IMG/VR virus record: IMGVR_UViG_3300047547_000384
Span: 1 to 23,639 of that record
Reading direction: 5' to 3' (one strand)
DNA: 23,639 bases
Source: a virus
The notes under the pieces were generated by a model. That model had not been told where the DNA came from, did no database searches, and was given only the letters and a program-made list of their open reading frames with translations. This document shows, piece after piece, positions 1 through 23,639 of this stretch (position 1 is its first letter; each line of letters starts with the position of its first letter). Position numbers and translations under genes: made by a program.

Positions 1-127
1 GATTGTCGAATTTTGATTGCTAGAATCTTGTTGAGTGGTGCTGAATGTTTACGTAGTCTTGATGGTTGATTGTTGGCATTGGGCTTAATCTGAAGATTGC
101 GTATCCTAGGGCGTCAAGGGGATGGTC
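1..127. repeat. Left copy of 127-bp terminal inverted repeat
   Basis: Bases 1-127 are the exact reverse complement of 23513-23639. The match stops abruptly: position 128 (c) no longer pairs with 23512. The right copy is the last 35 codons of the large terminase gene, its stop codon and 19 further bases, so this left copy carries an antisense fragment of that gene on the minus strand (stop codon at 20-22). No regulatory element is apparent in it. It may be a real inverted terminus, an amplification chimera or an assembly-graph overlap; the exact length of 127 and the location inside a coding gene favour an artefact. Confidence 0.95.
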
Positions 128-208
128 CTTCGCTCCGCTAACGCTACGCTCCACTTCTACCACAATGGCAGCATTCGCCGCCATTGTTCACGAAGTTTAA
201 ATCATTTT
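128..208. other. Intergenic segment with GC-rich tract and hairpin
   Basis: This stretch has no convincing reading frame. It opens with a tract in which CGCTCC occurs twice (131-136 and 147-152) around GCTAACGCTA, richer in G+C than its surroundings. It continues with a hairpin at 162-187: an eight-pair stem (ACAATGGC with GCCATTGT), one A/C mismatch, two more pairs and an ATTC loop. No T-run follows the hairpin, so it is not a classical intrinsic terminator. It could be a processing site or protein-binding site upstream of the portal operon. Confidence 0.5.
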
Positions 209-228
209 GATAAATAGACAACTAACTT
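209..228 (+). promoter_or_regulatory. TAAATA-type late-like promoter for the portal operon
   Basis: GATAAATA (209-216) is followed after four bases by ACTAAC (221-226), and lies 34 bases before the portal start codon. The same layout, TAAATA-N4-ACTAAY, recurs before the genes at 7977 and 22370. There is no recognisable -35 box. The core resembles the T4 late promoter consensus TATAAATA, which is known to need a phage sigma factor. Promoter activity is inferred from recurrence and position. Confidence 0.55.
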
Positions 229-249
229 CTAATCAACTTGAGATTCCTC

Positions 250-2391
250 ATGGCAAAGAATAAGAAATCACTCAGCGAGATACATGCCTTAGCAATCACG
301 CGATGTACAAATATCACTGAAGTGTTATACCAAGAACGACAGTCTAATTGTGATGACAGACGATTCGCCTTTGTTGCTGGAGCACAATGGGAATCATTAC
401 TCAATGGTGCTTTTGAAAATAAACTGAGAATGGAAGTCAATAAATTACCACAAGCGATTGAGAGAGTTTATACCCAGTGGTGTCAGAACTCAGTTGACGT
501 TAAGTTTGTTCCTAAAAATGGCACCAAAGGCGATGCACTTTCTGATTTATGTCAAAAGTTATACCGTGCGAGCGAAACAGATTCAAATGCTCAAGATGCT
601 TATCGTAATTCATTTAGGGACGCCTTAGCCGGTGGCTTTAGTGCTTTTCGCCTTAGCAATGAATATATCGATGAGAGCGATTGTGATAATGACGAACAAA
701 AAATAACTTGGCACCCAATCAAAGATGCCGATACTAGCGTGTTCTTCGACTTAAGTTGTAAGTTGCAAGATAAGAGTGATGCAAAATATGCGTTTGTTCT
801 CGCATTTCTAACTAACGAAGAATATGAGGAGCGATTTGGTAGACCAGTTTCCTCATTTCCAAAAGACATTCGACAATCAGCATTCGATTGGTATACACCA
901 ACTGGCGTTTATATTGCTGAGTACTTCGTTAAAGAAGAGGTTAGCGATTGGAAAATCACTTACGAGACGATGGTTGGCGATGAAGTAGTAAAACTCAGTG
1001 AACTTGATGACGCAAAGATGCAAGAATTAGATGCCATCGGTGCTACTGAGATTTCTCGACGAAAATTCACCAAATGCAAAGTTAGAAAATATATTCTGGA
1101 CGGCAATTGCGTCCTTGAGGACTGTGGCTATATCGCCGGAACAGAGATACCCATCATTCCAGTATATGGCCATGTCACTTATATCGACAATGTTGAGCGA
1201 TGCACTGGGATGGTGCGTCCTGTTAAAGACATTCAGCGATTGAAGAACATGCAAGTTTCTAAGTTAGCGGAAATTGCTTCCCTGTCATCACATTCAAAAC
1301 CAGTTTTCACTCCGCAACAGATTTCTGGACATCAGCAAATGTGGGCTGAGGACAACATCAAGAATTATCCATATTTGACGATTAATCCAACAATGGACCA
1401 AAACGGAAATGTTGTTCCTGCTCCTCCAGTGATGTACACGCAACCACCTGTTGTTCCAGCAGCGATTGAAACATTGTTAAACGTCACTGAGATGGATATC
1501 CAAGATGCACTTGGAAAACCGATGACAATGTTGACACCAGCCCCAAATACGTCTGGTTATGCGATGGAAATACAACAACAAGCGGTGGAAAGCCCGAACT
1601 ACATTTACTTGGATAACTTTCGCCAAGCGATTAAACGCTGTGGGCAGATTTGGCTGTCTATGGCAAAAGACGTCTACTCAAGTAATCGCAAAGTTAAGTT
1701 GTTGGATAAAGGTGGTAAAGCATCAGTTGCTGAGTTGATGCAATTGAACTTAGATGATGGCGGCAGCGTGTACTACGCTAATGATTTGAGTAAAGCAAAC
1801 CTTGATGTCATGGTAGATGTTGGGGCCAGCACATCAACACAACGCCAAGCAATTTTGAGGAACATCATCCCAATGCTTGGTTTAGTTAGTGATGAAAGTG
1901 CGAAGATGGTTTTGATGAGTACGGCTCTGATGAACATCGAAGGCGAAGGCATGGGAAATATCCGTGAGTACTTCAGAACACAACTTGTTAAACTCGGTGT
2001 TGAGAAACCAACCGAAGAAGATTTGGCTGCTGCTGCTAATCAAACAGAACAACCTAACGCTGAACAAAATTACTTGGTGGCTTTGGCTGAAGCCGAGATG
2101 AGCAAATCTACCAAATATCGTGCTGACTCCATGGTTGCTTTGGCTAAGGCCGAGAAAACTGAGGCTGAGACCTTGGAAATTATGATGAGTATCTCTGACC
2201 AGCCATTTGAGCAAATACAGGAACTGGTTGAGGAGAAGCGCCAGCCATTTAATCCAAACCCAAGTGAGCCATATTATGACGGAAGTGATGTTCTTGATTT
2301 CTATGAGGCCGCGAAGGTTGAGAATCCAGAGATTGCTCAAGAACTGGATGCGCCTTCCATTAATGATTTACTGCCACCTGGAGAAGTGTAA
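250..2391 (+). CDS. Portal protein, P22 gp1 family
   Basis: This 713-residue protein forms the dodecameric ring at the packaging vertex through which DNA enters and leaves the head. P22 gp1 is similar in length (725 residues). Matching blocks include a KSDAK motif at about residue 176 and the stretch running IAGTEIPIIPVYG followed by a VKDIQRLKNM segment at about 295-330, which parallels IAGEHIPIVPVFG and TKDGQRLRNM in P22. The C-terminal third is rich in Ala, Glu and Gln and probably helical, like the P22 barrel. I chose ATG 250 over an upstream TTG at 238 because the segment before it (ttgagattcctc) closely matches the one before the ATG at 7977. The stop overlaps the next start by one base (TAATG). 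Confidence 0.95.
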   Translation: MAKNKKSLSEIHALAITRCTNITEVLYQERQSNCDDRRFAFVAGAQWESLLNGAFENKLRMEVNKLPQAIERVYTQWCQNSVDVKFVPKNGTKGDALSDLCQKLYRASETDSNAQDAYRNSFRDALAGGFSAFRLSNEYIDESDCDNDEQKITWHPIKDADTSVFFDLSCKLQDKSDAKYAFVLAFLTNEEYEERFGRPVSSFPKDIRQSAFDWYTPTGVYIAEYFVKEEVSDWKITYETMVGDEVVKLSELDDAKMQELDAIGATEISRRKFTKCKVRKYILDGNCVLEDCGYIAGTEIPIIPVYGHVTYIDNVERCTGMVRPVKDIQRLKNMQVSKLAEIASLSSHSKPVFTPQQISGHQQMWAEDNIKNYPYLTINPTMDQNGNVVPAPPVMYTQPPVVPAAIETLLNVTEMDIQDALGKPMTMLTPAPNTSGYAMEIQQQAVESPNYIYLDNFRQAIKRCGQIWLSMAKDVYSSNRKVKLLDKGGKASVAELMQLNLDDGGSVYYANDLSKANLDVMVDVGASTSTQRQAILRNIIPMLGLVSDESAKMVLMSTALMNIEGEGMGNIREYFRTQLVKLGVEKPTEEDLAAAANQTEQPNAEQNYLVALAEAEMSKSTKYRADSMVALAKAEKTEAETLEIMMSISDQPFEQIQELVEEKRQPFNPNPSEPYYDGSDVLDFYEAAKVENPEIAQELDAPSINDLLPPGEV

Positions 2392-5928: not shown

Positions 5929-7920
5929 ATGACAACTCCAATAATTAAACTGGGCAGCAAGTTAGATGCAGACGCAAATATTTCCGAATTAACGAATGAC
6001 TCAGGCTTCATTACTGGAATTGGCGCATTATCAATCAATGCGCTCAGCGACGTCGATACAACTGGCTTAAGCACAAACCAAGTTTTACGTTACAACGGCA
6101 CAAATTTTGTTCCTTATACACTTGTCGGTGGTGGGGATGTCACTGGTGGCTCCAACCTCGATGGCGGTGTTGGTGTATTCGAATCCAAGGTCGGCGGAAA
6201 TCTTCGCTTTAAATCTTTGCTTGCCGGAACAGGCATCAGCATAACGGGTGGTTCCGAGTCGATTGAAATAAGTTCAACCATCGGGTCGCTCTCATTGACT
6301 GACTTAGCAGATGTGACGATTTCTGCACCGGCTGCTGGAAAATATTTGCGGTATACTGGCGCTGAGTGGGTGGATGTCGTCCCAACAAAACTTGATATTG
6401 GCCTTGGTAACGTGGATAATACGAGTGACATGAGCAAACCAGTTTCTACGGCAATGACGTCAGCCTTATCAATGAGGGCACCAATTGATGCCAACGTCAG
6501 CATATTCACCAATGATGCTGGATACGTGACTGCACTGTCAGCCCCAGTGACGTCAGTAAACTCACAAACTGGTTCTGTTGTTTTAACTAAAAACCACGTT
6601 GGCTTAAACAATGTCGATAATACGAGCGACATCAATAAACCAATCTCGACCGCCACACAGACAGCACTCAACGGCAAGGCAGCAACTGGGGCCAATGTGA
6701 GTATATTCATAAATGATGCTGGCTATCTGACATCGGCGCCAGTTTCATCGGTGAATGGACAAACTGGTGTTGTTGTAATAACTAAAACGAACGTTAGTCT
6801 TGGCAACGTAGATAATACCAGCGACATCAATAAACCAATCTCGACCGCCACACAGGCAGCCTTGAATGCCAAGGCGAATATTGGTGGCAACGTGAGTGTG
6901 TTCACCAATGACTCCGGCTTCATCACTGGCATTGGTGCGCTTTCAATCAATGCGCTCAGCGACGTCGATACAACTGGCCTAGCAACAAACCAAGTTTTAC
7001 GTTACAACGGCAGCCAATTTGTTCCTTATACAATCCCAGCATCTTCTACGACATGGGGAAGCATAACTGGGACATTAAGTTCCCAAACTGATTTGCAATC
7101 AGCACTTGATGCAAAATCAGCAACAAGTCACAACCACACTGGAGTATATGCAAATGTTGCACATACTCACGTTATATCTGATATTACGTCTCTACAGACA
7201 TCACTTGATGCGAAAGTTGCAACAGCATCAAATCTTGGCGCTGGCACTGGGGTATTTGAATCTAAAGTTGGTGTTGATTTAAGATTTAAGTCTTTAGTCG
7301 CTGGTACAAACGTCACTTTATCCAATGACGCAAACACCATAACAATCAACGCAACAGGCGGTGGTGGTGGTGGAAACCTTGACTCATTGACTGATGTTGT
7401 GATTACGAGTCCAACAAACAGGCACACATTCGTGTACAATGGTACAAACTGGGTGAATGAACCAGGAATCACTGTAGAAACGATGACAAGTACACAAGCG
7501 TTCTCGGCTGTCACTTACGCTAACGTAACACAGTTGGTTTCTTCCGTAGTAGCAAACGCCACTTATCGAGTTGATGCTTTCATAACTTTTCAGAGTGCTG
7601 CAACGACAACTGGGATTGGCATTCAACTTCTTGGGCCAACTGGGTCAACTTTTCGTGGAGAGATAGTAGTTCCAATCACGAGTACTGCTGCTGCATCACA
7701 ACTGAGAATCATTTTCCCAAACACAACATCAACCAACTCAGCAACTGTGCTAGGAACTGGTGTCACTGCAATTAATAGTAACCACACGTGCTTAATCCGG
7801 GGAATCGTAGAAGTTACTGGTACTGCGGGAACTATCCAAATTCTCGCTGCGAGTGAAGTAGCAGCATCTGCTGTGACTTTGCAAATCGGAAGCAAGATGA
7901 TAATTACTAGATTGCTGTAA
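5929..7920 (+). CDS. Tail fibre protein with long internal repeats
   Basis: This 663-residue protein is a probable receptor-binding fibre. Two near-identical segments (residues about 23-64 and 327-368) contain GIGALSINALSDVDTTGL and a VLRYNG/FVPYT ending, and are 304 residues apart. Between them are three copies of a 65-67-residue unit centred on NVDNTSD followed by KPxSTA and ALxxKA, a widespread tail-fibre shaft repeat. A second paired block, VFESKVGxxLRFKSLxAGT, occurs near 85 and 445. After a Gly run and a DSLTDVxITSP segment, the last 170 residues differ and probably form the trimeric receptor-binding tip. No chaperone-like autoprotease is seen. The ribosome binding site is weak (GAGA), consistent with coupling to the gene before. 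Confidence 0.88.
   Translation: MTTPIIKLGSKLDADANISELTNDSGFITGIGALSINALSDVDTTGLSTNQVLRYNGTNFVPYTLVGGGDVTGGSNLDGGVGVFESKVGGNLRFKSLLAGTGISITGGSESIEISSTIGSLSLTDLADVTISAPAAGKYLRYTGAEWVDVVPTKLDIGLGNVDNTSDMSKPVSTAMTSALSMRAPIDANVSIFTNDAGYVTALSAPVTSVNSQTGSVVLTKNHVGLNNVDNTSDINKPISTATQTALNGKAATGANVSIFINDAGYLTSAPVSSVNGQTGVVVITKTNVSLGNVDNTSDINKPISTATQAALNAKANIGGNVSVFTNDSGFITGIGALSINALSDVDTTGLATNQVLRYNGSQFVPYTIPASSTTWGSITGTLSSQTDLQSALDAKSATSHNHTGVYANVAHTHVISDITSLQTSLDAKVATASNLGAGTGVFESKVGVDLRFKSLVAGTNVTLSNDANTITINATGGGGGGNLDSLTDVVITSPTNRHTFVYNGTNWVNEPGITVETMTSTQAFSAVTYANVTQLVSSVVANATYRVDAFITFQSAATTTGIGIQLLGPTGSTFRGEIVVPITSTAAASQLRIIFPNTTSTNSATVLGTGVTAINSNHTCLIRGIVEVTGTAGTIQILAASEVAASAVTLQIGSKMIITRLL
6031..6978 (+). 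repeat. Duplicated DNA blocks inside the tail fibre gene
   Basis: A 36-base block at 6031-6066 is repeated exactly at 6943-6978, within a longer near-identical region covering roughly 6004-6120 and 6915-7032. A second 36-base block at 6625-6660 is repeated exactly at 6820-6855. Both offsets (912 and 195 bases) are multiples of three, so recombination between copies would keep the frame and change fibre length by 304 or 65 residues. Flanking synonymous differences show that the copies are diverging but were duplicated or homogenised fairly recently. Confidence 0.9.
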
Positions 7921-7976: not shown

Positions 7977-8387
7977 ATGGGAAGAAAAACAAAAATAACG
8001 GCAGTCACCAAGGAGCAACTTGAGAAAGTTACTTCATTAATATCGAATGGCGTAATCGTCGAAAATATTGGTAAAATGGTATTTGGTGTATGTCGATTCA
8101 CGTTTAATGATTTGCGTAAACGCTTCCCAGAATTAGAAGAAGCAGTTCAAGATGGAATGAACGCACAAGAACAAGCACTTGCTGGTAAAGTTTTTAAAAT
8201 CGCCATGGAAGATGGTAGTAAATCACAAGTTGCTTGCTTGTTCTTTCTGTTAAAATGCGTACACAGATGGCGCGAAAAGGAACCAGCAATCACTTTAAAT
8301 GTTGTCCCAGAGACGACTACAATGCTAACCGCAATATCAGATAAAGTGGTTGGTAAAAAAGAACCCAAAACAGACGAGGACGAATAA
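7977..8387 (+). CDS. Helix-turn-helix protein, possible small terminase subunit
   Basis: This 136-residue protein has the usual plan of small terminase subunits with an N-terminal DNA-binding helix-turn-helix. Residues 1-12 are basic. A helical region at about 15-55 follows, with a turn at the GVCRFTFNDLRKRFPELEEA segment (compare the general GVSxxTFxxWxxxxPEFxEA pattern). A second pair of helices (about 60-100) contains LFFLLKCVHRWRE, close to the LKxxxxxWRE seen in many TerS-like proteins, and the tail is acidic. Small terminase recognises the packaging site and feeds DNA to the large subunit. Its position far from the large terminase gene is unusual, so a transcriptional or morphogenetic regulator remains possible. 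Its stop overlaps the next start by one base. Confidence 0.6.
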   Translation: MGRKTKITAVTKEQLEKVTSLISNGVIVENIGKMVFGVCRFTFNDLRKRFPELEEAVQDGMNAQEQALAGKVFKIAMEDGSKSQVACLFFLLKCVHRWREKEPAITLNVVPETTTMLTAISDKVVGKKEPKTDEDE

Positions 8388-11412: not shown

Positions 11413-13431
11413 ATGATTGCTCACACCAATATGCCGTTAGATTTTAAACCAAAGCCTCTAATCCAACTCAAACCAGAAATGACCGTTGAAGAGATGGATG
11501 CTTACGAGAAGCAGGAAGCAGAACTTGCTAAAGAAACTAAGCCTCGAATCCGACTCAAAACAGAAATGACTGTTGAAGAGATGGATGCTTACGAGAAGCA
11601 GGAAGCAGAACTGAAAGCATCATTTTTAGCAGATACAGCAATCGCTGGCGCCAGAGAAGCAGCCGGAAATATCGTAAAAGGTATTGGTGGGTTTGCAGAT
11701 GCGACAGACCCACAACATCTTTTCATGTCTGACGAGGAAGATAAAGCGTTCAATGAGATGGGGGCAAAAACTGGATTACAAGCCATCGGTGATTCAATCA
11801 AGGTCCCAAGGGCTGAGTACGAACTTGCAAAAGAGAAAAGCCCAATATCAACAGCGGTTGGTGAAATTGGAACTGAAGTTGCATCTTTTTTAATTCCAGG
11901 GGCACGGGCCGCAAAACTTGCCTCAACGGGTGGTAGGATTGCCGCTCAAGCAGGAGTTGGCGCAACTGCATCAGGTTTAGTTTCGAGTGGTAAGGGTAAC
12001 ACTGGCGAAGAAGTTTTTAAGGATGTAATGGTCGGTGGTGTTCTTGGTGGTGTTGGACAAGGTGTTGGCGAAGTGCTTTCAAAAATAGCAATACCCAGTG
12101 GCGAAGTGGCCAAAGATGTTGCCAAAGATGTGAGCAACAAATTATCAGAAATAAGAGTCAACAAGGCTGGAAAACCAGTGGAAAAACTGGCCGAGGTATT
12201 GAAAAATAACAAGACATCCATTGATGCTTTCCAAAAGCATCTCTCATCAAACTTCAGTGAAGAAGGCGGTGATGTTCTCAGCAAAGCAATTTTGGATTCA
12301 GTTGGTGTGGATACTAACTCACTTAATGCAACTCAGCGCGGGCATATTGTTAGTGAGACACTGACAAAAAATATTGGCAAGTTGTCCCCCAACGCCAGTA
12401 AAATTAAAGCAGGCGTCCAATCTTTTGCTGAACAACAAGCCGCCCATGAGAAGATTGTTAACAAGTTGTTCGATAACCAAATATCTGCAACGACCAATGT
12501 ACCAGACGCGTTTAATGATGTCATCACAGAAGTGACGAACTCATTAAAGACTGGAACGTATAACACTACTCAATCTAATACAATGAAGCGAGTGAAAGAT
12601 GCGCTTAGTTCAAATAACCAAAGTAATATCACTGCTCTAAGAGATTCATTGTCAAAATCATCATCCAAGTTTGACAGAGATTATCTTGAAAAAATTGATA
12701 GAGCACTTTTTCCCGATGTATACGACGACATCATGTCATTAAAAACAGCACCCACATCCGATTTTGCCAAACTGGTGTTCAATAAAAATAAATCGGACGA
12801 TGATTTGGTGAGGGTAATTCTGGCTTCACCTGGCAAATATTCAGCAAAAGACCTGTCCGAAATTGCTGATTACACGAAGACATTTGAAAAGGTAGGACTC
12901 GATGGTTTGCTCGAAGATGATAAACTCGTCAACGACACGGCTAAGCACGGCTGGAGCAATCTCCAAAAGAAACTTACACAATCGCTTATTAATTCGGCAA
13001 AAACCGACGGCGACATCATCGACAATAAGTTGTTAGTGACAAACCTCAACAAATTTGGTGATGACCGACTGAAGGCTATCATGTCGCCAAGTGAGTTTAA
13101 TCTCTACAAAACAATCAAAGCATTACCCAAAGAAACTGTAAAACCCGTTGGTAGAGTTGAAGGTCTTAAGGATAAAATTCTCAGCAAAGATAACAGACAA
13201 GCATTGGTCGTTGATGCAGTGACACTGGCAACGGGTGGAACACCAATGGCAAGTATACTAAAAGCCATTCTAAAAACAAAGCACGATGTCGATGGAAAAG
13301 TTTACAGCGCCATTGATGACTTAGTAAAACAGCAATCAAAAACAACATCGACGATTCCACGTAAATATATTGCTCCAGTAATAACAACACCGGCTGGCGC
13401 CCAATTAAGTAAAAAAGAGGAAAGAAAATAA
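11413..13431 (+). CDS. Ejection protein, in the position of P22 gp16
   Basis: This 672-residue protein probably forms part of the DNA translocation conduit through the cell envelope. The first 68 residues carry a duplicated unit (EMTVEEMDAYEKQEAEL twice, 29 residues apart). A hydrophobic Gly/Ala-rich region follows at about 150-235 (SFLIPGARAAKL, GVGATASGLVSSG, GGVLGGVGQGVGEVL), compatible with membrane insertion. The remainder is helical and charged with no recognised enzyme domain. P22 gp16 is of similar length (609) and has the same place before the tailspike. I preferred ATG 11413, directly after the preceding gene, over a longer frame overlapping it, because the extension has no start site support. 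The stop overlaps the tailspike ATG by one base. Confidence 0.75.
   Translation: MIAHTNMPLDFKPKPLIQLKPEMTVEEMDAYEKQEAELAKETKPRIRLKTEMTVEEMDAYEKQEAELKASFLADTAIAGAREAAGNIVKGIGGFADATDPQHLFMSDEEDKAFNEMGAKTGLQAIGDSIKVPRAEYELAKEKSPISTAVGEIGTEVASFLIPGARAAKLASTGGRIAAQAGVGATASGLVSSGKGNTGEEVFKDVMVGGVLGGVGQGVGEVLSKIAIPSGEVAKDVAKDVSNKLSEIRVNKAGKPVEKLAEVLKNNKTSIDAFQKHLSSNFSEEGGDVLSKAILDSVGVDTNSLNATQRGHIVSETLTKNIGKLSPNASKIKAGVQSFAEQQAAHEKIVNKLFDNQISATTNVPDAFNDVITEVTNSLKTGTYNTTQSNTMKRVKDALSSNNQSNITALRDSLSKSSSKFDRDYLEKIDRALFPDVYDDIMSLKTAPTSDFAKLVFNKNKSDDDLVRVILASPGKYSAKDLSEIADYTKTFEKVGLDGLLEDDKLVNDTAKHGWSNLQKKLTQSLINSAKTDGDIIDNKLLVTNLNKFGDDRLKAIMSPSEFNLYKTIKALPKETVKPVGRVEGLKDKILSKDNRQALVVDAVTLATGGTPMASILKAILKTKHDVDGKVYSAIDDLVKQQSKTTSTIPRKYIAPVITTPAGAQLSKKEERK
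11466..11612 (+). repeat. Tandem 87-bp-offset duplication in the gp16-like gene
   Basis: The segment 11466-11525 recurs at 11553-11612 with only a few mismatches, one of them a silent third-position change (ACC/ACT) in the first Thr codon of the unit. The 87-base offset equals 29 codons. Each copy encodes LKxEMTVEEMDAYEKQEAEL. The near identity at DNA level points to a recent in-frame duplication at the N-terminus of the ejection protein. Confidence 0.9.
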
Positions 13432-15909: not shown

Positions 15910-15973
15910 GACATACCGCATAATGCGAGTTGTAATAAATTAAAATTCCACGTAAGTGAGTAGAGGTAGTAAA

Positions 15974-16882
15974 ATGAGTGATGAACAGAAAACAGAAAAT
16001 CTTGATGTAGAGGCTAACTTCGTAATTGAAATTGACGAGGTTGATGAATCAGTGGACTCAAGCCACGATGTTGATGTAGAAGCAGTTGATGGTGATGTTG
16101 TTGAAGGCGAATTGGTTGAAGATGAATCAGAAGATGAATCAGAAGATGAATCAGAAGATGAATCAGAAGATGAATCAGAAGATGAATCAGAAGATGAATC
16201 GACAGTAGAACAAAAAGCACCAAGTTGGGTTAAGGAACTGCGGAAGTCACACAAAGAAGCAAAACGAGAAAACGATGAACTTAAGCGCAAACTCGCTGAA
16301 TTAACAAACGTACCAAAACCCGAGGTTGTTGAGTTAAAGAAACCGACTATCGATGAGTTTAATTACGATGTTGATGCTTACGAAGAAGCGTTAGTTGGGT
16401 ACATTGAAAATAAAAAAGAGTTAACTGCTAAACAAGAGTTGAGTCGAAAGCAAGAAGAAGAAGCAAAGAATGCATGGAATCAGAAGTACGAAGGCTATAC
16501 TAACGCCAAAAAAGCGTTGAATAAGCCCGACTTCACAGATGCAGAATCACTTGTTTCAACAAAACTTTCACCAGTTCGTCAAAGCATGTTAGTTCAATTT
16601 AGTGAAAACCCAGCGCACTTGGCGTACATTCTCGGCAAGAACCCAAAAGAACTTGACAGACTATCTGACATCAAAGACGAAGCGACGTTCATTTTTGAAT
16701 TAGCGAAAATCGATAGTAAAGTCAAGACTGTCAAAACAAACAAAAGTGTACAACCAGAACGAACCGTAACACCAACTGGAACTAAAACTTCCAATAAGTC
16801 ATATGACAAAATGTTGGATGAGGCAGTTAAGACAGGCGATTACACAAAACTGAATAAATATTTCGATAAGCGAAATGCTTAA
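15974..16882 (+). CDS. Scaffold protein, P22 gp8-like
   Basis: This 302-residue acidic, helical protein is the probable internal scaffold of the procapsid. It lies directly before the coat gene, and P22 gp8 is 303 residues. Residues 1-75 are extremely acidic and include seven DES units. A helical middle part (about 80-170) has Lys/Glu-rich heptads and the segment PTIDEFNYDVDAYEEALVGY, commonly seen in phage scaffold-like proteins. The last 60 residues turn basic (VKTVKTNKSVQPERTV and a KLNKYFDKRNA end), which matches the basic coat-binding C-terminus of scaffolds. ATG 15974 has AGGTAG upstream; a longer frame from a GTG at 15956 has no better site. Confidence 0.85.
   Translation: MSDEQKTENLDVEANFVIEIDEVDESVDSSHDVDVEAVDGDVVEGELVEDESEDESEDESEDESEDESEDESEDESTVEQKAPSWVKELRKSHKEAKRENDELKRKLAELTNVPKPEVVELKKPTIDEFNYDVDAYEEALVGYIENKKELTAKQELSRKQEEEAKNAWNQKYEGYTNAKKALNKPDFTDAESLVSTKLSPVRQSMLVQFSENPAHLAYILGKNPKELDRLSDIKDEATFIFELAKIDSKVKTVKTNKSVQPERTVTPTGTKTSNKSYDKMLDEAVKTGDYTKLNKYFDKRNA
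16121..16200 (+). repeat. 12-bp tandem repeat (GATGAATCAGAA) in the scaffold gene
   Basis: Six perfect consecutive 12-base units start at 16121 and are followed by eight bases of a seventh before GACAGT. They encode repeated Asp-Glu-Ser-Glu at residues 50-76. Perfect identity between units indicates recent expansion, and changes in copy number would stay in frame. Confidence 0.97.
16852..16860 (+). promoter_or_regulatory. TAAATA-type element before the coat gene
   Basis: GAATAAATA at 16852-16860 lies inside the last codons of the scaffold gene, 54 bases before the coat ATG. It shares its nonamer with the leftward copy at 15855. Being inside a coding region it could be fortuitous, but a dedicated promoter for the most abundant virion protein would make sense. 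Confidence 0.35.
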
Positions 16883-16914
16883 AACAAATTTAATTAATTA
16901 CGTGGAGTAATAAT

Positions 16915-18180
16915 ATGGCTAATAATTTTTCAAAACAAACTCTTGTTGAGTTTGACAAATTGGTTGCTGGTTTTGATGATGCTTGTACCATCAGTAAATT
17001 AGTTTCTAAAGACTCAGTGTCAATGCAGAATATCACCCGTTCTGAGAACAGCACCATTTGGCGCCCAATTCCTTACATCGCTAACTCATACGATGGCTTG
17101 GACCAAACTGCTAACTTCAACGACATCACTCAGTTATCTGTTCCTACAACTGTTGGTAGTGTTAAGTCAGTTCCTTTTAAATTAACATCTATCGAATCCA
17201 ACGACCCACGTCGTGTTGCTGACATGTTCGCAGCCGCTAAGTTGAAATTGGCTTCAGACATCAACCTCGCAGTTTTAAACGCTGTTTCCTTACGCGGAAC
17301 TAATGTTGTGAAAGTTACTGCTGCCGCTTCTGGTTTCAGTGACATCTCTAAAGTTAAAGCACAACTTGATTTGTTGGGTGTTCCTATGGGCAACCGTCAT
17401 TTAGTAATGAACCCCACTGACTATTTGGGTGCTGCTTCTAACTTGAGCGGATTGTCTCGTTCATTCGGTAACTCTACTTCTGACAAAGCATTAGAAGAAG
17501 GTTATGTTGGTCGCATTTCTGGTATCGATACACACGAAAGTGAGTACGGTTATGCATTAGGTGCTGCTGCTGGTGGTGCTATCACTATCGACACACGTGT
17601 TGCTGGTGCTCAGTTCTACACTCCAGTTGCAATGTCTGCTGGCTTATTGGTTGATAACCGCACTGACGTTGTTACTGTTTCCTCTACCACTGGCGTTGCT
17701 GCTGGTGATTGCTTCACAATTGCTGGTGTTACTTCAGTGAATATGGTTAACAAATCATCCACCGGTCAATTGAAAACTTTCCGAGTCATTTCTGTTGACT
17801 CTGGTACTACAATGACTATCTCTCCTCCAATCATCTCAGCACAAGGTGGCACTGCTGCTGAACTGCAATACAAAAACGTCGCTATTTCCGGCGCTGGTTC
17901 TGCCACGGCTGCAATAACCTGGCTCAACACTGCTGCTGCTCCTACTAACGTATTCTTCGCAAAAGACGCCGTTAGTTTGATTCCTGGTTCCTTGCACATC
18001 CCTGCGCAAGCCGGTGCTGGTGCTGTGATTTCCGGCACCTCTAAGAATGGCATTCCTGTTCAGTTGAGTGCGTTTTTCGATATAAACACTTCTAGCATTA
18101 AATATCGTCTTGATGTTCTCTGGGGGGTCTCTGTTCTCGCTCCCGAGATGGCTGGTGTTTTGATTTGTAATCAGGTGTAA
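16915..18180 (+). CDS. Major coat protein, P22 gp5-like
   Basis: This 421-residue protein is close to P22 coat (430 residues), a HK97-fold shell protein with an inserted I-domain. Diagnostic segments are the N-terminal SMQNITRSENSTIWRPIPY (P22 SMQRSSNTIWMPV), RHLVMNPTDYLGAASNLSGL (P22 TSYFFNPQDYKKAGYDL), and the I-domain at about 254-305, with VTVSSTTGVAAGDCFTIAGV and a TFRVISVDSGTTMTISPP block (P22 [20 protein letters not shown] and SVVRVVDGTHVEITPKP). The end IKYRLDVLWGVSVLAPEMAG parallels P22 CRIALWYGVNATRPEAIG. TGGAG precedes the ATG. Codons look more regular than in neighbouring genes, as expected for very high expression. A strong terminator follows. Confidence 0.93.
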   Translation: MANNFSKQTLVEFDKLVAGFDDACTISKLVSKDSVSMQNITRSENSTIWRPIPYIANSYDGLDQTANFNDITQLSVPTTVGSVKSVPFKLTSIESNDPRRVADMFAAAKLKLASDINLAVLNAVSLRGTNVVKVTAAASGFSDISKVKAQLDLLGVPMGNRHLVMNPTDYLGAASNLSGLSRSFGNSTSDKALEEGYVGRISGIDTHESEYGYALGAAAGGAITIDTRVAGAQFYTPVAMSAGLLVDNRTDVVTVSSTTGVAAGDCFTIAGVTSVNMVNKSSTGQLKTFRVISVDSGTTMTISPPIISAQGGTAAELQYKNVAISGAGSATAAITWLNTAAAPTNVFFAKDAVSLIPGSLHIPAQAGAGAVISGTSKNGIPVQLSAFFDINTSSIKYRLDVLWGVSVLAPEMAGVLICNQV

Positions 18181-18207: not shown

Positions 18208-18236
18208 AAAAGCCCTCTTTCGAGGGCTTTTTTTAT
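18208..18236. terminator. Bidirectional intrinsic terminator between coat and HNH genes
   Basis: AAAAGCCCTC (18208-18217) pairs perfectly with GAGGGCTTTT (18222-18231) around a TTTC loop and is followed by further T residues. Because the stem ends in an A-run on one side and a T-run on the other, it can stop transcription from both directions: the rightward coat operon and the leftward HNH gene ending at 18236. It marks the boundary between structural and accessory regions. Confidence 0.92.
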
Positions 18237-18733
18237 TATCTGCCGTGACGTTCCGTGTATGATGGAATTTTATTGATGTGACTGATTCGTGCCGCTGCCG
18301 CTTCGAAAATGTGAGAAAAATAACCAAGGTGCTTTTTTTCCCCAGGATTCTCGCGAACGGCACGCACCTCCCATTTTCCTCTGGCTTTTATGAAACTCAC
18401 GCCTGCTATACCGCTAGCGTTGTCTATTCGCTTCTTTGAGTTTCGACTGTTTTCTCGAGAAGTGACTTCACGCAAATTTGCTATTTTGTTATTAAGTCTG
18501 TTTTGGTCTATATGGTCAATGAAAATTGGGAGATATCCGTGTGCCATCAAAAAAATCAACCGGTGAGCGTAGTACTTTTTTTCGTCCACCTGTACTTTCC
18601 GATAACCTTTGTCGTCAACACACCCAGCCTCATCGCCCACGCGAATCCCCCGTTGAGCAACTTTCCAGTAAAGTTTTCCCAATTTGTAATCAAAATATTT
18701 CAAACATCTTTGTTGCAACTCTAAATCCGTCAT
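18236..18733 (-). CDS. HNH endonuclease with AP2-like DNA-binding domain
   Basis: This 165-residue protein is a probable free-standing homing endonuclease. The HNH core of the HNH_3 type is complete: AHRLIFLMAHG with His57, IDHIDQN with Asp73-His74, then NNKIANLREVT with Asn82 and Asn86. Residues about 105-150 (SGIAGVSFIKARGKWEVRA, then LGYFSHIFEAAAA) match an AP2-like DNA-binding domain. I chose ATG 18733, with GGGAGG six bases before it, over upstream TTG codons. It is a paralogue of the gene at 21702-22262, sharing length, domain order and a RHGR C-terminus. It has its own sigma-70-type promoter and shares the bidirectional terminator with the coat gene. Confidence 0.92.
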   Translation of the reverse strand: MTDLELQQRCLKYFDYKLGKLYWKVAQRGIRVGDEAGCVDDKGYRKVQVDEKKYYAHRLIFLMAHGYLPIFIDHIDQNRLNNKIANLREVTSRENSRNSKKRIDNASGIAGVSFIKARGKWEVRAVRENPGEKKHLGYFSHIFEAAAARISHINKIPSYTERHGR

Positions 18734-18759
18734 AAAACCTCCCAATATTTAAAACCCCA

Positions 18760-18788
18760 ATTATACCACAAATCGCTTTGGTTGTCGA
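18760..18788 (-). promoter_or_regulatory. Sigma-70-type promoter for the HNH gene at 18236
   Basis: On the minus strand TCGACA (18788-18783; five of six matches to TTGACA) is separated by 17 bases from a perfect TATAAT (18765-18760), preceded by TGG as an extended -10. The start site would fall near 18752. The leader continues TTGGGG, then TTAAATAT, and a ribosome binding site, much like the leader of the second HNH gene. It overlaps the end of the upstream operon's untranslated tail. Confidence 0.8.
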
Positions 18789-18806
18789 GCGCCAGGTTAT
18801 TATATT

Positions 18807-19118
18807 TTATATTTTCAAATCAAGGATTTCATTTCTTTTTTGTTTCGCATGCTTTATACATTCACGGAAGGCGTTTCGCTCATACTCGTTAAGTCTGTCA
18901 TCGTGAACGAGTTTCGTACACTCAACAACATCAGTTCGGTACTTCTCAAGCACTACTTCCTTGATTTTTAATAATGCGAACTCATTCTCCCTGGCATTCA
19001 TGGTGTGCTGCATCAACACAATCATTTGTGCATTTAACACTTTGTGCAAACCGGCATCGTCGATGATTTTCTGAATATCTCTCAACTTGTCACCTGTAAA
19101 CCCGCATTTAGTACACAT
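18807..19118 (-). CDS. Small unknown protein with N-terminal CxxC
   Basis: This 103-residue protein is not assigned. It begins MCTKCGFTGDKLRDIQ, with a single CxxC that could be half of a zinc knuckle; another lone Cys lies in ECTKL and one in ECIKHAK, so a four-ligand site (Cys2, Cys5, plus Cys or His later) is conceivable but unproven. The rest is a charged helical protein. GAGGAG precedes the ATG, which overlaps the previous stop by one base (TAATG). It is the last gene of the leftward operon that starts at 20339, and no terminator hairpin follows before the HNH promoter. Confidence 0.75.
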   Translation of the reverse strand: MCTKCGFTGDKLRDIQKIIDDAGLHKVLNAQMIVLMQHTMNARENEFALLKIKEVVLEKYRTDVVECTKLVHDDRLNEYERNAFRECIKHAKQKRNEILDLKI

Positions 19119-19516
19119 TATTTCTCCTCCATTTTTGAACAGTAGTACTCAACAGCAGTGCGTTTTAACTCACCTGGCAATGTTATTTTTGTCAAACCAT
19201 CCAATTTTACAGTAGAAGCGTTTTTGAATATTTCCATCTTCAACAAATTCTCAAGGCCTTTAGCAAAAATCAAGTGGTGGTTTTCAGTTGATTCCATTTC
19301 ATCCAAATCTGTATCAACATCTACCACACAAACGTGGCAACTCACGTCAAAAACTTCAACTATTGATGCTGATTTCCCAACCTCAATATCCTCGTGAAAT
19401 AATCTCGGTCTCGCGATGGCCATACACTCAAGACCTCCAAATTCAAATGGCACGACGTGTGCTTTAGAAAAAACAGTCCACTCCTTCGCCAAAATATTAT
19501 TCAAAGCACTCATCAT
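19118..19516 (-). CDS. Unknown protein in the leftward operon
   Basis: This is a 132-residue protein of unknown function. I start it at the ATGATG at 19516-19511, which overlaps the stop of the 20-residue peptide before it. A longer frame from ATG 19597 (159 residues) lacks a ribosome binding site and would fully overlap that peptide. Visible features are a helical N-terminus (SALNNILAKEWTVFSKA), a VVPFEFGGLECMAIARP block, an acidic beta-strand run (CHVCVVDVDTDLDEMES) and a basic helical tail. No catalytic motif is recognised. Tight coupling with its neighbours suggests they act together, probably early in infection. Confidence 0.7.
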   Translation of the reverse strand: MMSALNNILAKEWTVFSKAHVVPFEFGGLECMAIARPRLFHEDIEVGKSASIVEVFDVSCHVCVVDVDTDLDEMESTENHHLIFAKGLENLLKMEIFKNASTVKLDGLTKITLPGELKRTAVEYYCSKMEEK

Positions 19517-19575
19517 AGCCCCCAAGTGTGAATGATTATTAAAATTACGATAAACCCTATAATTGACAAAATCAT
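19513..19575 (-). CDS. 20-residue membrane peptide
   Basis: ATG 19575 has a perfect AAGGAG (19588-19583) seven bases upstream. The 20-codon product is almost entirely Ile, Leu, Val and Phe (MILSIIGFIVILIII followed by HTWGL), which is one transmembrane helix. Its ATG overlaps the stop of the preceding 39-residue gene as ATGA, and its TGA stop overlaps the ATGATG start of the following gene. This chain of overlaps makes a chance ORF unlikely. Function is unknown; such peptides in phages can be lysis or membrane modulators, which is inference only. Confidence 0.6.
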   Translation of the reverse strand: MILSIIGFIVILIIIHTWGL

Positions 19576-19691
19576 TTTGAATCTCCTTCGTCGTCATGAC
19601 ATACGCAAGTGCAGTCGCAATTAATTTTTCTCATCACTACGCCAAGAATGAATCCCAACACAAATGCAATACCAACAAATAAAAATGTCAT
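19572..19691 (-). CDS. 39-residue membrane protein with Cys-rich tail
   Basis: ATG 19691 follows AAAGGAG with nine-base spacing and lies one base after the preceding gene's stop. The longer upstream frame overlaps that gene entirely and is rejected. The product is one hydrophobic helix (TFLFVGIAFVLGFILGVVM, about 2-20), then a short basic stretch (RKIN) and a tail CDCTCVCHDDEGDSK with four cysteines and a histidine. The positive-inside rule puts the Cys-rich tail in the cytoplasm, where it could bind metal. Function unknown. Its stop overlaps the 20-residue peptide's start by four bases. Confidence 0.75.
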   Translation of the reverse strand: MTFLFVGIAFVLGFILGVVMRKINCDCTCVCHDDEGDSK

Positions 19692-19692
19692 A

Positions 19693-20052
19693 TTAAACTT
19701 CTCCTTTAGATTTTCGTGGGCCACGTTTATTTTGACGTGGGTCAATACCAAGAGATTTGGCTTCTGGATATAGCAATAAATTATCGATTGCGACATTTGC
19801 CAAGTTGCCATCACGACGACAGACTTGATATTGTGGAATCTCTTCATAGTGCATCACCCAAGCAATCACCGATGTTGAGTACTTACGACCGCGAAAATAA
19901 ACTTGTCTTGAACCAAATGCTGCTTCTACGCCAGCGATTTTTCCATTTCGAAATATATCACCAGTGCTTGGGTTGTATTGGAAATATTCGCGTAACTCTT
20001 GAACATTGAGTTCAGAATAATCGCGGGTTGATACGCCTGTTGACTTGCCCAT
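19693..20052 (-). CDS. HNH-like protein lacking catalytic histidines
   Basis: This 119-residue protein has the layout of a HNH_3 nuclease: FQYNPSTGDIFRNGKIAG (24-41), then VYFRGRKYSTSVIAWVMHYEEIP (51-73), CRRDGN (78-83) and IDNLLLYPE (89-97). Compared with canonical YxxHRxxW, DHxNGN and NRxxNL, the first His is Ser61, Asp-His is Cys78-Arg79, and only Asn91 of the final NL motif stays. It therefore looks like a nuclease-derived protein that has lost cleavage activity and may only bind DNA. The C-terminal tail is basic (NKRGPRKSKGEV). AAAGGAGAG precedes the ATG, which overlaps the preceding gene's stop by one base. Confidence 0.7.
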   Translation of the reverse strand: MGKSTGVSTRDYSELNVQELREYFQYNPSTGDIFRNGKIAGVEAAFGSRQVYFRGRKYSTSVIAWVMHYEEIPQYQVCRRDGNLANVAIDNLLLYPEAKSLGIDPRQNKRGPRKSKGEV

Positions 20053-20339
20053 TATTTCTCTCCTTTGGATTTAGATTTTGATACTTTTGCTTTTGGTAAC
20101 TTTGGTTCCTCGACTTCGGGCGATACTTCGGGTTCGTAATCACCGGCCAATTCATTGAATTTGGCTAGAATGTCACTTCGATAAATTTCGTATGAATCAT
20201 CAATCGCTAAAAGTTCCACCCACTGGCTTGAACTTAAATCTAGAAACATCCCGCGACGATTCAACTCTTCTCTTTCTAATACTGTTAACTTCTCCAACTC
20301 AGTTCTAGAGAAATCTTCAAATTTTTTGTTAATGTTCAT
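20052..20339 (-). CDS. Unknown small protein, first gene of leftward operon
   Basis: This 95-residue protein is not assigned. It starts at ATG 20339 with AAAGGAG six bases upstream. The N-terminal half is helical and charged (FEDFSRTELEKLTVLEREEL, then QWVELLAIDDSYEIYRSDIL), followed by an acidic Pro/Glu linker (about 68-80) and a basic Lys/Ser tail (KAKVSKSKSKGEK). The tail resembles that of the next gene (RKSKGEV), as if the two bind the same partner or nucleic acid. It overlaps the HNH-like gene by one base (TAATG) and heads a chain of six tightly packed genes. Confidence 0.75.
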   Translation of the reverse strand: MNINKKFEDFSRTELEKLTVLEREELNRRGMFLDLSSSQWVELLAIDDSYEIYRSDILAKFNELAGDYEPEVSPEVEEPKLPKAKVSKSKSKGEK

Positions 20340-20365
20340 TTTTTACTCCTTTTTGTTGTATATTG

Positions 20366-20373
20366 TATTTATC
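20366..20373 (-). promoter_or_regulatory. TAAATA-type element before the leftward operon
   Basis: GATAAATA on the minus strand (20373-20366) begins about 32 bases before the ATG at 20339, the same spacing as in other copies. A sigma-70-type promoter lies about 55 bases further upstream, so this operon may be transcribed in two phases. It lacks the ACTAAY element. Confidence 0.4.
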
Positions 20374-20423
20374 ACCATTGAAAGGAAAGTACGCTAAAAC
20401 AGTGTCTTTTTCTTAGTAGAGTA

Positions 20424-20452
20424 ATTATACCAAAGATTTATACTAAAATCAA
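20424..20452 (-). promoter_or_regulatory. Sigma-70-type promoter for the leftward operon
   Basis: On the minus strand TTGATT (20452-20447; four of six) is followed after 17 bases by a perfect TATAAT (20429-20424) with TGG before it. The 17-base spacing and extended -10 match the two HNH promoters. The start would be near 20416, giving a leader of about 77 bases before the first gene, with the TAAATA element inside it. Confidence 0.72.
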
Positions 20453-20483
20453 GCATTTTGAACATTATTTTTAGCACAATAGA

Positions 20484-20491
20484 CTAAATAG
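20484..20491 (+). promoter_or_regulatory. TAAATA-type element before the nuclease-like gene
   Basis: ACTAAATA (20484-20491), the same octamer as before the large terminase, starts 49 bases before ATG 20533. It diverges from the leftward sigma-70 promoter at 20424-20452 across the 193-base gap. No other rightward promoter is evident there. Confidence 0.4.
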
Positions 20492-20532
20492 TATGTAGCA
20501 CAAAATAACAACGAAGTCAAGGAGAAAACAAG

Positions 20533-21096
20533 ATGAGCACTTTTAAAATATCAGCGGAAGAGGGAGAACAAATCGCTTTCAAAGCACTTGGTAAGAAGCA
20601 TAAGGTTCGCATGAGCAACCCAGATGAGAATAAATTTCAGAGGTTTGACATTCAGGCGGATGACATGCTTATTGACGTGAAGACACAAAATCGTGCTGGA
20701 GAAACAAACAATATTTCGTTCGAACTTTTTCAATATCACGAAAGTTATATTGTCACCAGCGCAAATTGGATGACTTATCTCAAAGATGCTCACCCAAAAG
20801 GAACTTGGAACGTGTTGTTGCCTGGATGTTTACATGAAAGCACTGGGAAGTATAGTAATCGAGCAACCCATTTCTATATTGTCACTCCAAGTCAAAACTA
20901 TCTGATTCCGAGAGATATTATGCGAAAGTTCGTGGATGAGATGATTGCTGCTAGGATTGACAAACTGAATGATGGGGTATATATCTCATTTGGGTTTAGT
21001 AAAGCAACTGCCGCTAATAATCACGGCAGGCATTCAATGCAGAGTTGCAATCTCATATTTCCGATGAAACTTTTAAGCGGGTTCGAGCACGAGTAG
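20533..21096 (+). CDS. PD-(D/E)XK-like nuclease candidate
   Basis: This 187-residue protein lacks an assigned name. Residues 8-20 form an acidic helix (AEEGEQIAFKALG), followed by FDIQADDMLIDVKTQ, in which Asp39, Asp48 and Lys50 (the D-x-K of IDVKTQ) fit the D...(D/E)xK signature of the PD-(D/E)XK nuclease fold, with Glu10 or Glu12 as the usual helix acid. A strand (NISFELFQY) comes next, as in that fold. The rest has no recognised domain. ATG 20533 follows CAAGGAG with a proper spacer. It is flanked by HNH genes, so it may itself be a mobile endonuclease, or a recombination or junction-resolving enzyme. Its last 44 bases overlap the convergent gene ending at 21053. Confidence 0.6.
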   Translation: MSTFKISAEEGEQIAFKALGKKHKVRMSNPDENKFQRFDIQADDMLIDVKTQNRAGETNNISFELFQYHESYIVTSANWMTYLKDAHPKGTWNVLLPGCLHESTGKYSNRATHFYIVTPSQNYLIPRDIMRKFVDEMIAARIDKLNDGVYISFGFSKATAANNHGRHSMQSCNLIFPMKLLSGFEHE

Positions 21097-21697
21097 TAAT
21101 CATAAGAGGCCCTCTGTCGAAGAAAAACAATTCGTAAGGCATCAACGTGTATGTATTCTTATTTCTTCCTCCATTCTTAATTGAAAACTTCGCAACATCG
21201 TGATAACCACGTACAAGCCTGAGTTCATTTGCATCATAATTCACAAAAACTTGAATATCTCCAACAAGGTATTTGGTGTATTCAAGTCCTTTGATATATT
21301 TTTTCTTAGAACGTAAGGTTGCACAATCAGCCAATAATTTCCGTATTTGAGGTTGCGTGAGGTCTGTCAATTTCTCGCAGAATATTGGGGCGTGTTCTAT
21401 ATTATTCTTGGTAAAGGAATTGTTTGTCATTGCGTAAAGATTCTCAATTCTATTGTCTGTCGAATCTTGATTCAAATGACCAACGTACTTTGGAAGAGAG
21501 TAATGGTGCATGAGATATATCAGACGATGAGTTGCGTACTTGGCGCCAGCGATTGCGATTTGACGACGACCACCTTGGAAAGTTCCGGCTTCCGTGTTGA
21601 CTTTTACTGCATTGGAGTATCGGGTTTTTATAAAAAGTTTGCCGGACTCGTAGTAAAAGCGTTCGTTGCAGATTTTTAGAAGATTTTCATTTTTCAT
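21053..21697 (-). CDS. HNH-like protein with an unrelated C-terminal domain
   Basis: This 214-residue protein starts at ATG 21697 with GGAAG upstream, four bases after the stop of the HNH gene before it. The N-terminal half is a HNH_3 fold: THRLIYLMHHYSLP with His57, then YVGHLNQD with Gly73-His74 and TDNRIENLYAMT with Asn82 and Asn86. The usual acidic residue before the second His is Gly73, so activity may be reduced. Where the paralogues have AP2-like domains, residues 105-214 hold something different (LTQPQIRKLLADCATLRSKK, then IQVFVNYDANELRLVRGYH), possibly a new DNA-recognition part. The gene's end overlaps the nuclease-like gene by 44 bases. Confidence 0.78.
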   Translation of the reverse strand: MKNENLLKICNERFYYESGKLFIKTRYSNAVKVNTEAGTFQGGRRQIAIAGAKYATHRLIYLMHHYSLPKYVGHLNQDSTDNRIENLYAMTNNSFTKNNIEHAPIFCEKLTDLTQPQIRKLLADCATLRSKKKYIKGLEYTKYLVGDIQVFVNYDANELRLVRGYHDVAKFSIKNGGRNKNTYTLMPYELFFFDRGPLMITTRARTRLKVSSEI

Positions 21698-21701
21698 AAT
21701 A

Positions 21702-22262
21702 TTATCTTCCGTGTCTGAGTGTGTATCCGGGTATGGTGGCGATATAATCGTTTCTCGCCTTGATGGCGTCTTCGATGTCTGTGAAATCCCCAAGGGAGAA
21801 CTGCTTGCCCGTCTCTGGACTATACGCTCGGGCGGCCCACTTACCATTTGGTAATCTGTGAACCCCCGCGTGTCCACTTTTGTTGTTCTTATACATCCTC
21901 TTATTTCTCATATTTTTCGATTGGGTCACCGCTCGTAAATTAGAGATTCTATTGTTACTGGGGTTTTGGCTGAAATGGTCGATGAATTTTGGGAGGAACC
22001 CATGTTCAAGCAGGAATATGATTCGATGCGACTTGTGTATTCTACCATCTATCTTCACGCACCGGTACCCGTATCCATCAAATGAACCAGCCTCATCGCC
22101 AGCACTCACCGGTCCTCGAGACACTTTCCAAAACAACTTCCCATTTTCAGCATCATACTCAAACAACTCCAAAAATCTTTCTCTCAAATCCACCACCGCC
22201 TTTGGCGTTATCACAAGGCCATTCAAATTCGTAAACCGATTCTTATCTACTAAAATATTCAT
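21702..22262 (-). CDS. HNH endonuclease with AP2-like DNA-binding domain, second copy
   Basis: This 186-residue protein is a probable homing endonuclease adjacent to the large terminase gene. The HNH core is complete: SHRIIFLLEHG (His79), IDHFSQN (Asp95-His96), then SNNRISNLRAVT (Asn104, Asn108). An AP2-like domain follows (SGHAGVHRLPNGKWAARA, then LGDFTDIEDAIKARND), and the end is TLRHGR, like the copy at 18236. The N-terminal 25 residues are an extension absent from that paralogue. ATG 22262 has GGAGG seven bases upstream. A consensus sigma-70 promoter drives it leftward while the terminase is transcribed the other way. HNH proteins beside terminase can act in packaging, but the AP2 domain favours a homing role. 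Confidence 0.92.
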   Translation of the reverse strand: MNILVDKNRFTNLNGLVITPKAVVDLRERFLELFEYDAENGKLFWKVSRGPVSAGDEAGSFDGYGYRCVKIDGRIHKSHRIIFLLEHGFLPKFIDHFSQNPSNNRISNLRAVTQSKNMRNKRMYKNNKSGHAGVHRLPNGKWAARAYSPETGKQFSLGDFTDIEDAIKARNDYIATIPGYTLRHGR

Positions 22263-22297
22263 AATTCCTCCAAATGATATTCATATATTTAGCCTCA

Positions 22298-22326
22298 ATT
22301 ATACCACGCATTCCAGGAAATGTCAA
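22298..22326 (-). promoter_or_regulatory. Consensus sigma-70 promoter for the HNH pair
   Basis: On the minus strand a perfect TTGACA (22326-22321) lies 17 bases from a perfect TATAAT (22303-22298), with TGG before it as an extended -10. This is the strongest promoter-like sequence in the window. Its leader carries CTAAATAT at about 22292-22285, matching the layout of the 18760 promoter. It faces away from the terminase gene and its -35 lies nine bases from the terminase TAAATA element. Confidence 0.88.
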
Positions 22327-22333
22327 CGACATT

Positions 22334-22353
22334 ACTAAATATAAAACTAATTC
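22334..22353 (+). promoter_or_regulatory. TAAATA-type late-like promoter for the large terminase
   Basis: ACTAAATA (22334-22341) is followed after four bases by ACTAAT (22346-22351). The TAAATA starts 34 bases before ATG 22370, the same as at 7943-7977. This is the third full TAAATA-N4-ACTAAY copy, and it is placed back to back with the HNH promoter. Confidence 0.55.
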
Positions 22354-22369
22354 TTCACAGGAGTCAACA

Positions 22370-23620
22370 ATGTCGAAAACACACACAATATCACTGATGC
22401 CTAAGCAGTTGGAATTCTTCAATGACCGAGAGCACAAATACCTACTGTTTCTCGGCGGTTTCGGCTCAGGCAAGAGTTTCGCGTTACTAAACAAATGCAT
22501 TCACACTTGTCTCGTCAATCAAGGCTCAAATATCGGTCTCGTCGCCCCGCAATTGTCAATGCAAAAGCGAATTCATATCCCAGATATCCTGAAATTTCTT
22601 CAAGAATACGGAATAGAGCACAAGTACTTCAAGCAAGATAAGTATTTCCAAATCGGCCCAAAGAAAAATCCAACAAATTTATACTTGTACTCAGGCGAAG
22701 AACCAGATAGAATTGCTGGTCTAAATGCGACAGCATTTTTCATTGACGAAATCGACTTAATGCGAAAGGACGCCGCTTATAAGTTAGTGAACCAAGTCTC
22801 ATCGCGGATTCGAGTATTAGCACCAATCAACCAAATTTGTATGTCCAGCACACCAGAAGGCTTTAAGTTTTTATACGAATTCTTTGAAGTTAATGCAGCA
22901 CCAGATAGAAGAATAATTCGTGGACGAACTTATGACAACTATCATGTTCCACCAACATACGCCGATGACTTAAGGAAAGTTTTCACAGAGCAACAAGTTA
23001 ACGCATATCTCAATGGCGAATTTGTTAACATGTCAGGTGGTAGCGTCTACAACAACTTCCAAGTTATCAATCAAGATTTTGATGAAACCAAAACTTTACA
23101 TGTTGGAGTAGACTTTAACGTCGATAACACAGCGGCAGTCATTATCCAAAAGTTTGGTGAGAAATACGTGGTTGTTGCTGAAGTGACAAAATGTAAGGAC
23201 ACTCACCATCTTGTTGAAACTATGAAAGAGAAATATGCCGGTAAACAAATAATTTGGTATCCTGACGCAAGTGGTGCTCAACGTAAAAGTTCAGCAATGG
23301 GACAGACAGACAACAAAATTCTATTGTCATATCCAAATTCATCTATTAATACTGTGGGGTTCAACCCATTGATTAAAGACCGAGTGAATACTGTGAACTA
23401 TAACTTCAGGAACAACATTCTAACTTTATCGAATAATGCCCCCGTGTTACTTGATGCATTAAAACGTCAGACTTATGATTCGAACCAATTACCAGACAAG
23501 ACGTCCGGCTTAGACCATCCCCTTGACGCCCTAGGATACGCAATCTTCAGATTAAGCCCAATGCCAACAATCAACCATCAAGACTACGTAAACATTCAGC
23601 ACCACTCAACAAGATTCTAG
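22370..23620 (+). CDS. terL: Terminase large subunit
   Basis: This 416-residue protein is the packaging motor ATPase and nuclease that pumps DNA through the portal. The ATPase domain has Walker A GGFGSGKS (29-36), Walker B AFFIDEID with Asp126-Glu127, and coupling motif SSTPEG (159-164). The RNase H-like nuclease has acidic residues in VGVDFNVD (Asp248), WYPDASG (Asp299) and DHPLDALGYA (Asp382, Asp386). ATG 22370 follows AGGAG; the longer upstream frame lacks a start and overlaps the promoters. In P22-like phages the large terminase immediately precedes the portal, so the portal at the other end of this window is what would be expected next. The last 35 codons are duplicated in inverted form at 1-127. 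Confidence 0.96.
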   Translation: MSKTHTISLMPKQLEFFNDREHKYLLFLGGFGSGKSFALLNKCIHTCLVNQGSNIGLVAPQLSMQKRIHIPDILKFLQEYGIEHKYFKQDKYFQIGPKKNPTNLYLYSGEEPDRIAGLNATAFFIDEIDLMRKDAAYKLVNQVSSRIRVLAPINQICMSSTPEGFKFLYEFFEVNAAPDRRIIRGRTYDNYHVPPTYADDLRKVFTEQQVNAYLNGEFVNMSGGSVYNNFQVINQDFDETKTLHVGVDFNVDNTAAVIIQKFGEKYVVVAEVTKCKDTHHLVETMKEKYAGKQIIWYPDASGAQRKSSAMGQTDNKILLSYPNSSINTVGFNPLIKDRVNTVNYNFRNNILTLSNNAPVLLDALKRQTYDSNQLPDKTSGLDHPLDALGYAIFRLSPMPTINHQDYVNIQHHSTRF

Positions 23621-23639
23621 CAATCAAAATTCGACAATC
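23513..23639. repeat. Right copy of 127-bp terminal inverted repeat
   Basis: This is the exact reverse complement of 1-127. It begins with the first base of codon 382 of the large terminase gene, includes the stop codon at 23618-23620 and ends 19 bases later. If the window were closed head to tail, this copy and the left one would form a perfect 254-bp palindrome directly behind the gene. Confidence 0.95.

Follow-up and report, generated by a model that had tools for sequence, protein, structure and literature searches.

The window analyzed here is the whole of a 23,639-base IMG/VR virus record. It encodes P22-type portal, adaptor, head closure, small terminase, ejection, tail, scaffold and coat proteins, and the portal, coat, scaffold, head closure and ejection proteins place the phage among the P22-like podoviruses. 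The features at and near the two ends are as follows.

1–127, minus strand: left repeat copy, the reverse complement of 23513–23639, carrying, inverted, the final 35 codons of the large terminase gene, its stop and 19 downstream bases; the secondary copy
127/128, no strand: inner junction between the inverted terminase fragment and portal-upstream DNA, where identity is abruptly lost; modeled in the graph simulation
128–249, plus strand: non-coding stretch upstream of the portal gene, for which DNA searches found no relative
153–196, plus strand: hairpin next to the junction (ACTTC...ACAATGGC/GCCATTGT...GAAGT), z-score about −3 when a 110-nt stretch is folded as single-stranded DNA
250–2391, plus strand: P22-like portal gene (PF16510, E=1.1e-129; phrog_156), in an ORF open from 238 with a likely ATG at 250
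22370–23620, plus strand: complete large terminase gene (PF03237/PF17289; phrog_2), in ORF 22274–23620 with a likely start at 22370 (MSKTH...)
23513–23639, plus strand: right repeat copy, in its natural place at the 3′ end of the large terminase gene and extending 19 bases past the stop; the C-terminus it encodes was compared with the TerL proteins of relatives

End-to-end comparison bears out the original prediction that the first 127 bases are the perfect reverse complement of the last 127. All 127/127 bases are identical and the inner edge is abrupt; the next bases are C and T, and beyond base 128 the match is at chance level. Apart from this terminal pair, the whole window has no inverted repeat reaching 25 nt. 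The repeat had also been described as the 3′ end of the large terminase gene from codon 382, and reading the ORF from its likely start at 22370 gives the same codon. From there (GAC CAT CCC CTT GAC GCC, D-H-P-L-D-A) it runs through 35 terminase codons, the stop codon at 23618–23620 and 19 more bases to the contig end. The left copy, an inverted fragment lying 122 bases upstream of the portal ATG, has its inner edge at this same codon 382, the start of the conserved D-H-x-x-D-A motif. The C-terminus of the terminase shows the conserved DH..DA motif, and its tail resembles those of the relatives G002 and G006 in the TerL comparison, so the right copy is the original one, and the left is secondary and inverted. 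A search of the terminase against solved structures gave no match.

In 23.6 kb, chance cannot produce 127 matching bases in a row. The complete identity and the abrupt edge argue against the ends resembling each other by chance or being a functional repeat that relatives conserve, and no copy of the repeat was found in any fetched relative or in viral_contigs; we give this explanation a negligible probability. A 25-mer of the repeat, searched in viral_contigs for a partner contig, had no match there, in a set from which near-identical records may be absent. Since a portal-upstream 30-mer likewise found no match in viral_contigs, nor a portal-upstream 25-mer in genome_contigs, these searches brought to light no partner contig and no host repeat. 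A DNA search of positions 1–600 against phages gave no match, and a portal protein search of genome_contigs found no relative. Rfam and tRNA scans were empty, so the ends are not explained by a tRNA or a known RNA. The hairpin at 153–196 is stable and 25 bases away from the junction. An inverted match of 9 bp between 14–22 and 290–298 was weighed as a case of microhomology but dismissed as due to chance.

The gene content bears on whether the contig is a whole genome. No replication or recombination gene was recognized among the window's ORFs, and the early-module ORFs of the relatives MW202867 (34,522 bp) and MW202475 (39,997 bp) had no match in the window at E 1e-3. Both relatives are complete, with circular maps that include the early module, so the contig is very probably a fragment that holds only the late genes of a P22-like phage. 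The full genome is probably 34–40 kb. In the two complete relatives the terminase lies directly before the portal gene, with 27 and 42 bases from terminase stop to portal start, and in G002 the gap is two bases. Terminase and portal genes were adjacent and in the same orientation in the relatives seen; none of them carries a piece of the terminase gene ahead of portal.

Several other features of the window were recorded. The Ad3 adaptor gene directly follows the portal gene, and the scaffold and coat genes (15956–18180) lie downstream of the tail gene; the relatives seen have both of these between portal and Ad3 adaptor. The large terminase (22370–23620) belongs to a lineage different from that of the nearest complete portal relatives, since the terminases of MW202867 and MW202475 gave no match at E 1e-3; those of G002 and G006 match it at about 35%. 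A small terminase-like gene (7977–8387, phrog_309) stands among tail and other late genes, far from the large terminase, and four HNH endonuclease-like ORFs (phrog_99) occupy the minus strand between coat and terminase (18236–22262). Internal repeats are present in a tail-fiber-like gene at 5989–7032 (direct repeats of 132 nt at 87% and 187 nt at 75%), near the start of the gene in the P22 gene 16 protein (gp16) position (two 79-nt copies, 92% identical, at 11447–11612) and in the scaffold protein, where a tandem 12-bp repeat (16118–16201) encodes an acidic EDES repeat.

The length of the repeat is exactly 127, an assembler k value and a usual last k in SPAdes runs. The relative G005 (40,246 bp), from the same collection, carries at its ends a direct repeat that is also exactly 127 bp long. 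As a control, 80 microvirus contigs were taken from the collection: direct terminal repeats occur in 28 of them and inverted ones in none. The lengths of these direct repeats are mixed and include 55, 99, 121, 123 and 127, and that 127 is one of several counts against a k=127 origin. The authors of CheckV noted preferred direct-repeat lengths (e.g., 55, 77 and 99) that are likely assembler k-mers, and reported that 33.2% of IMG/VR contigs with inverted repeats are >90% complete, as against 90.0% of those with direct repeats (PMC8116208).

Graphs with k=127 were built from the window's unique core joined to various hypothetical surroundings; they comprise unitigs only, whereas a real assembler also corrects errors and extends paths. 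A circle lacking an inverted repeat gave a direct repeat of 127. When the circle was given a 427-bp inverted repeat, the result was the 23,639-bp core contig with inverted ends of exactly 127, together with a second contig having the same inverted ends. The core contig of 23,639 bp, with inverted ends of exactly 127, also came from linear genomes whose inverted ends were 427 or 127 bp long and from palindrome-bearing circles. A fold-back chimera reproduced the window's pattern only when the natural portal-upstream junction was left uncovered; with that junction covered, the contig began at 128 and had no inverted repeat. Thus the k=127 graph reproduces the pattern, and in this model any inverted repeat of at least 127 bp would yield a contig with inverted ends of exactly 127. 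Because differing repeats give the same ends, 127 would be only a lower bound imposed by k, and the true repeat may be longer; the 127/128 edge alone would reflect the input sequence, as a true divergence among the assembled k-mers. The earlier reading of the exact 127 as a k-mer size therefore holds as a sign of graph overlap, although not as the size of the underlying repeat.

The simulated linear genomes and palindromic circles leave room in principle for true physical termini, that is, a linear genome with protein-primed inverted terminal repeats or with covalently closed hairpin telomeres. Among the ORFs searched in this incomplete contig, we found neither the DNA polymerase and terminal protein of a protein-primed linear phage nor the protelomerase of an N15-like hairpin-telomere phage. 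The repeat, moreover, is cut from a coding gene; among the P22-like relatives, maps are circular or, in G005, the ends carry a direct repeat, as expected of headful packaging; and a natural repeat whose length exactly equaled a k value would be coincidental, unless a longer one had been cut at k. We therefore judge true termini very improbable.

The repeat is real in the sequence, and its length and terminal position are almost certainly products of assembly and not phage genome ends. That the contig ends are vertices of a k=127 de Bruijn graph is, taken by itself, a conclusion we hold with high confidence. As to how the inverted connection came about, the terminase-end 127-mer would have been reached both from the terminase gene and, inverted, from the portal-upstream DNA; reached from two sides, it would have stopped the assembler, which kept this shared k-mer on both contig ends. 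The inverted connection would most likely be a fold-back (inverted) chimera from DNA amplification or library preparation, with the coverage of the natural portal-upstream junction too low for it to have entered the graph. Inverted joins make up 85% of multiple displacement amplification chimeras, mostly within 10 kb (PMC1855051). The closeness of terminase end and portal start that the relatives lead us to expect on this genome would fit such an event, as would the hairpin adjoining the junction. The coverage gap, however, has to be assumed, because with the natural junction covered the contig would break at 128.

This requirement that the natural junction be absent from the graph is also why a real inverted duplication keeps some weight. 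The phage genome, as a circular map or in a subpopulation, would then truly have a second, inverted terminase 3′ end upstream of the portal gene, in a repeat whose length is 127 bp or more; a second arm between the copies would hold the missing early genes, and the contig would have been cut at k. Such a genome simulates to the window's contig plus a second contig with no coverage gap assumed, it gives the absent early module, which should be located somewhere, a place, and the genome is rearranged relative to its relatives in any case. Against it, the repeat 25-mer led to no other contig in viral_contigs (a set that may lack near-identical records), the relatives seen offer no precedent for a terminase fragment upstream of the portal gene, and a mismatch-free secondary copy would need a very recent origin. 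We consider a real duplication unlikely, although well short of negligible. One form of it, in which a long inverted repeat from the phage's own terminase 3′ end divides a late arm (the window's contig) from an early arm, seems to us improbable; if true, recombination between the terminase-derived copies could flip one arm against the other.

Two steps in this account are inferred, a k of 127 for this assembly and a chimeric origin of the join in preference to a true duplication; k=127 graph ends together with a fold-back chimera are in our view the probable joint cause, held with moderate confidence. The original prediction favored a de Bruijn overlap or an inverted amplification chimera. The 127-bp direct repeat of G005, the published k-length repeats, the simulation and the incomplete gene set all strengthen that explanation; it needs amending in that a chimera alone is insufficient and the natural junction must also be missing.

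CheckV, a common pipeline, takes contigs with inverted terminal repeats as candidate complete genomes (PMC8116208), and the window is an example of a k-length inverted repeat on a contig without early genes. Because of these two properties, it would be wrong to label this contig “complete” or “linear with inverted termini”, and its repeat should be read neither as the end of a genome nor as a sign that the genome is complete.

Compared with the P22-like podoviruses MW202867 and MW202475, the window has the portal, coat, scaffold, head closure and ejection proteins in common, whereas its gene order is rearranged, the early module is absent from the contig and the large terminase is of another lineage. 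Inverted sequence at both ends is shared with phi29 and PRD1, which are linear and protein-primed, and with the hairpin-telomere phage N15, but a matching polymerase, terminal protein or protelomerase was not found among the ORFs searched, and the window's repeat is part of the terminase gene. The inverted chimeras of multiple displacement amplification (PMC1855051) resemble its inverted join in linking two sites expected to be close on the genome, a comparison that would hold for a sample amplified in that way; the natural portal-upstream sequence, where microhomology with the terminase end would be sought, lies outside the contig. Finally, like the k-length terminal repeats of de Bruijn assemblies (PMC8116208), its repeat has an exact common k value on a metagenomic viral contig and a sharp edge unrelated to gene boundaries; those repeats are usually direct and come from a circular template, whereas the window's is inverted and needs an inverted connection in the graph.
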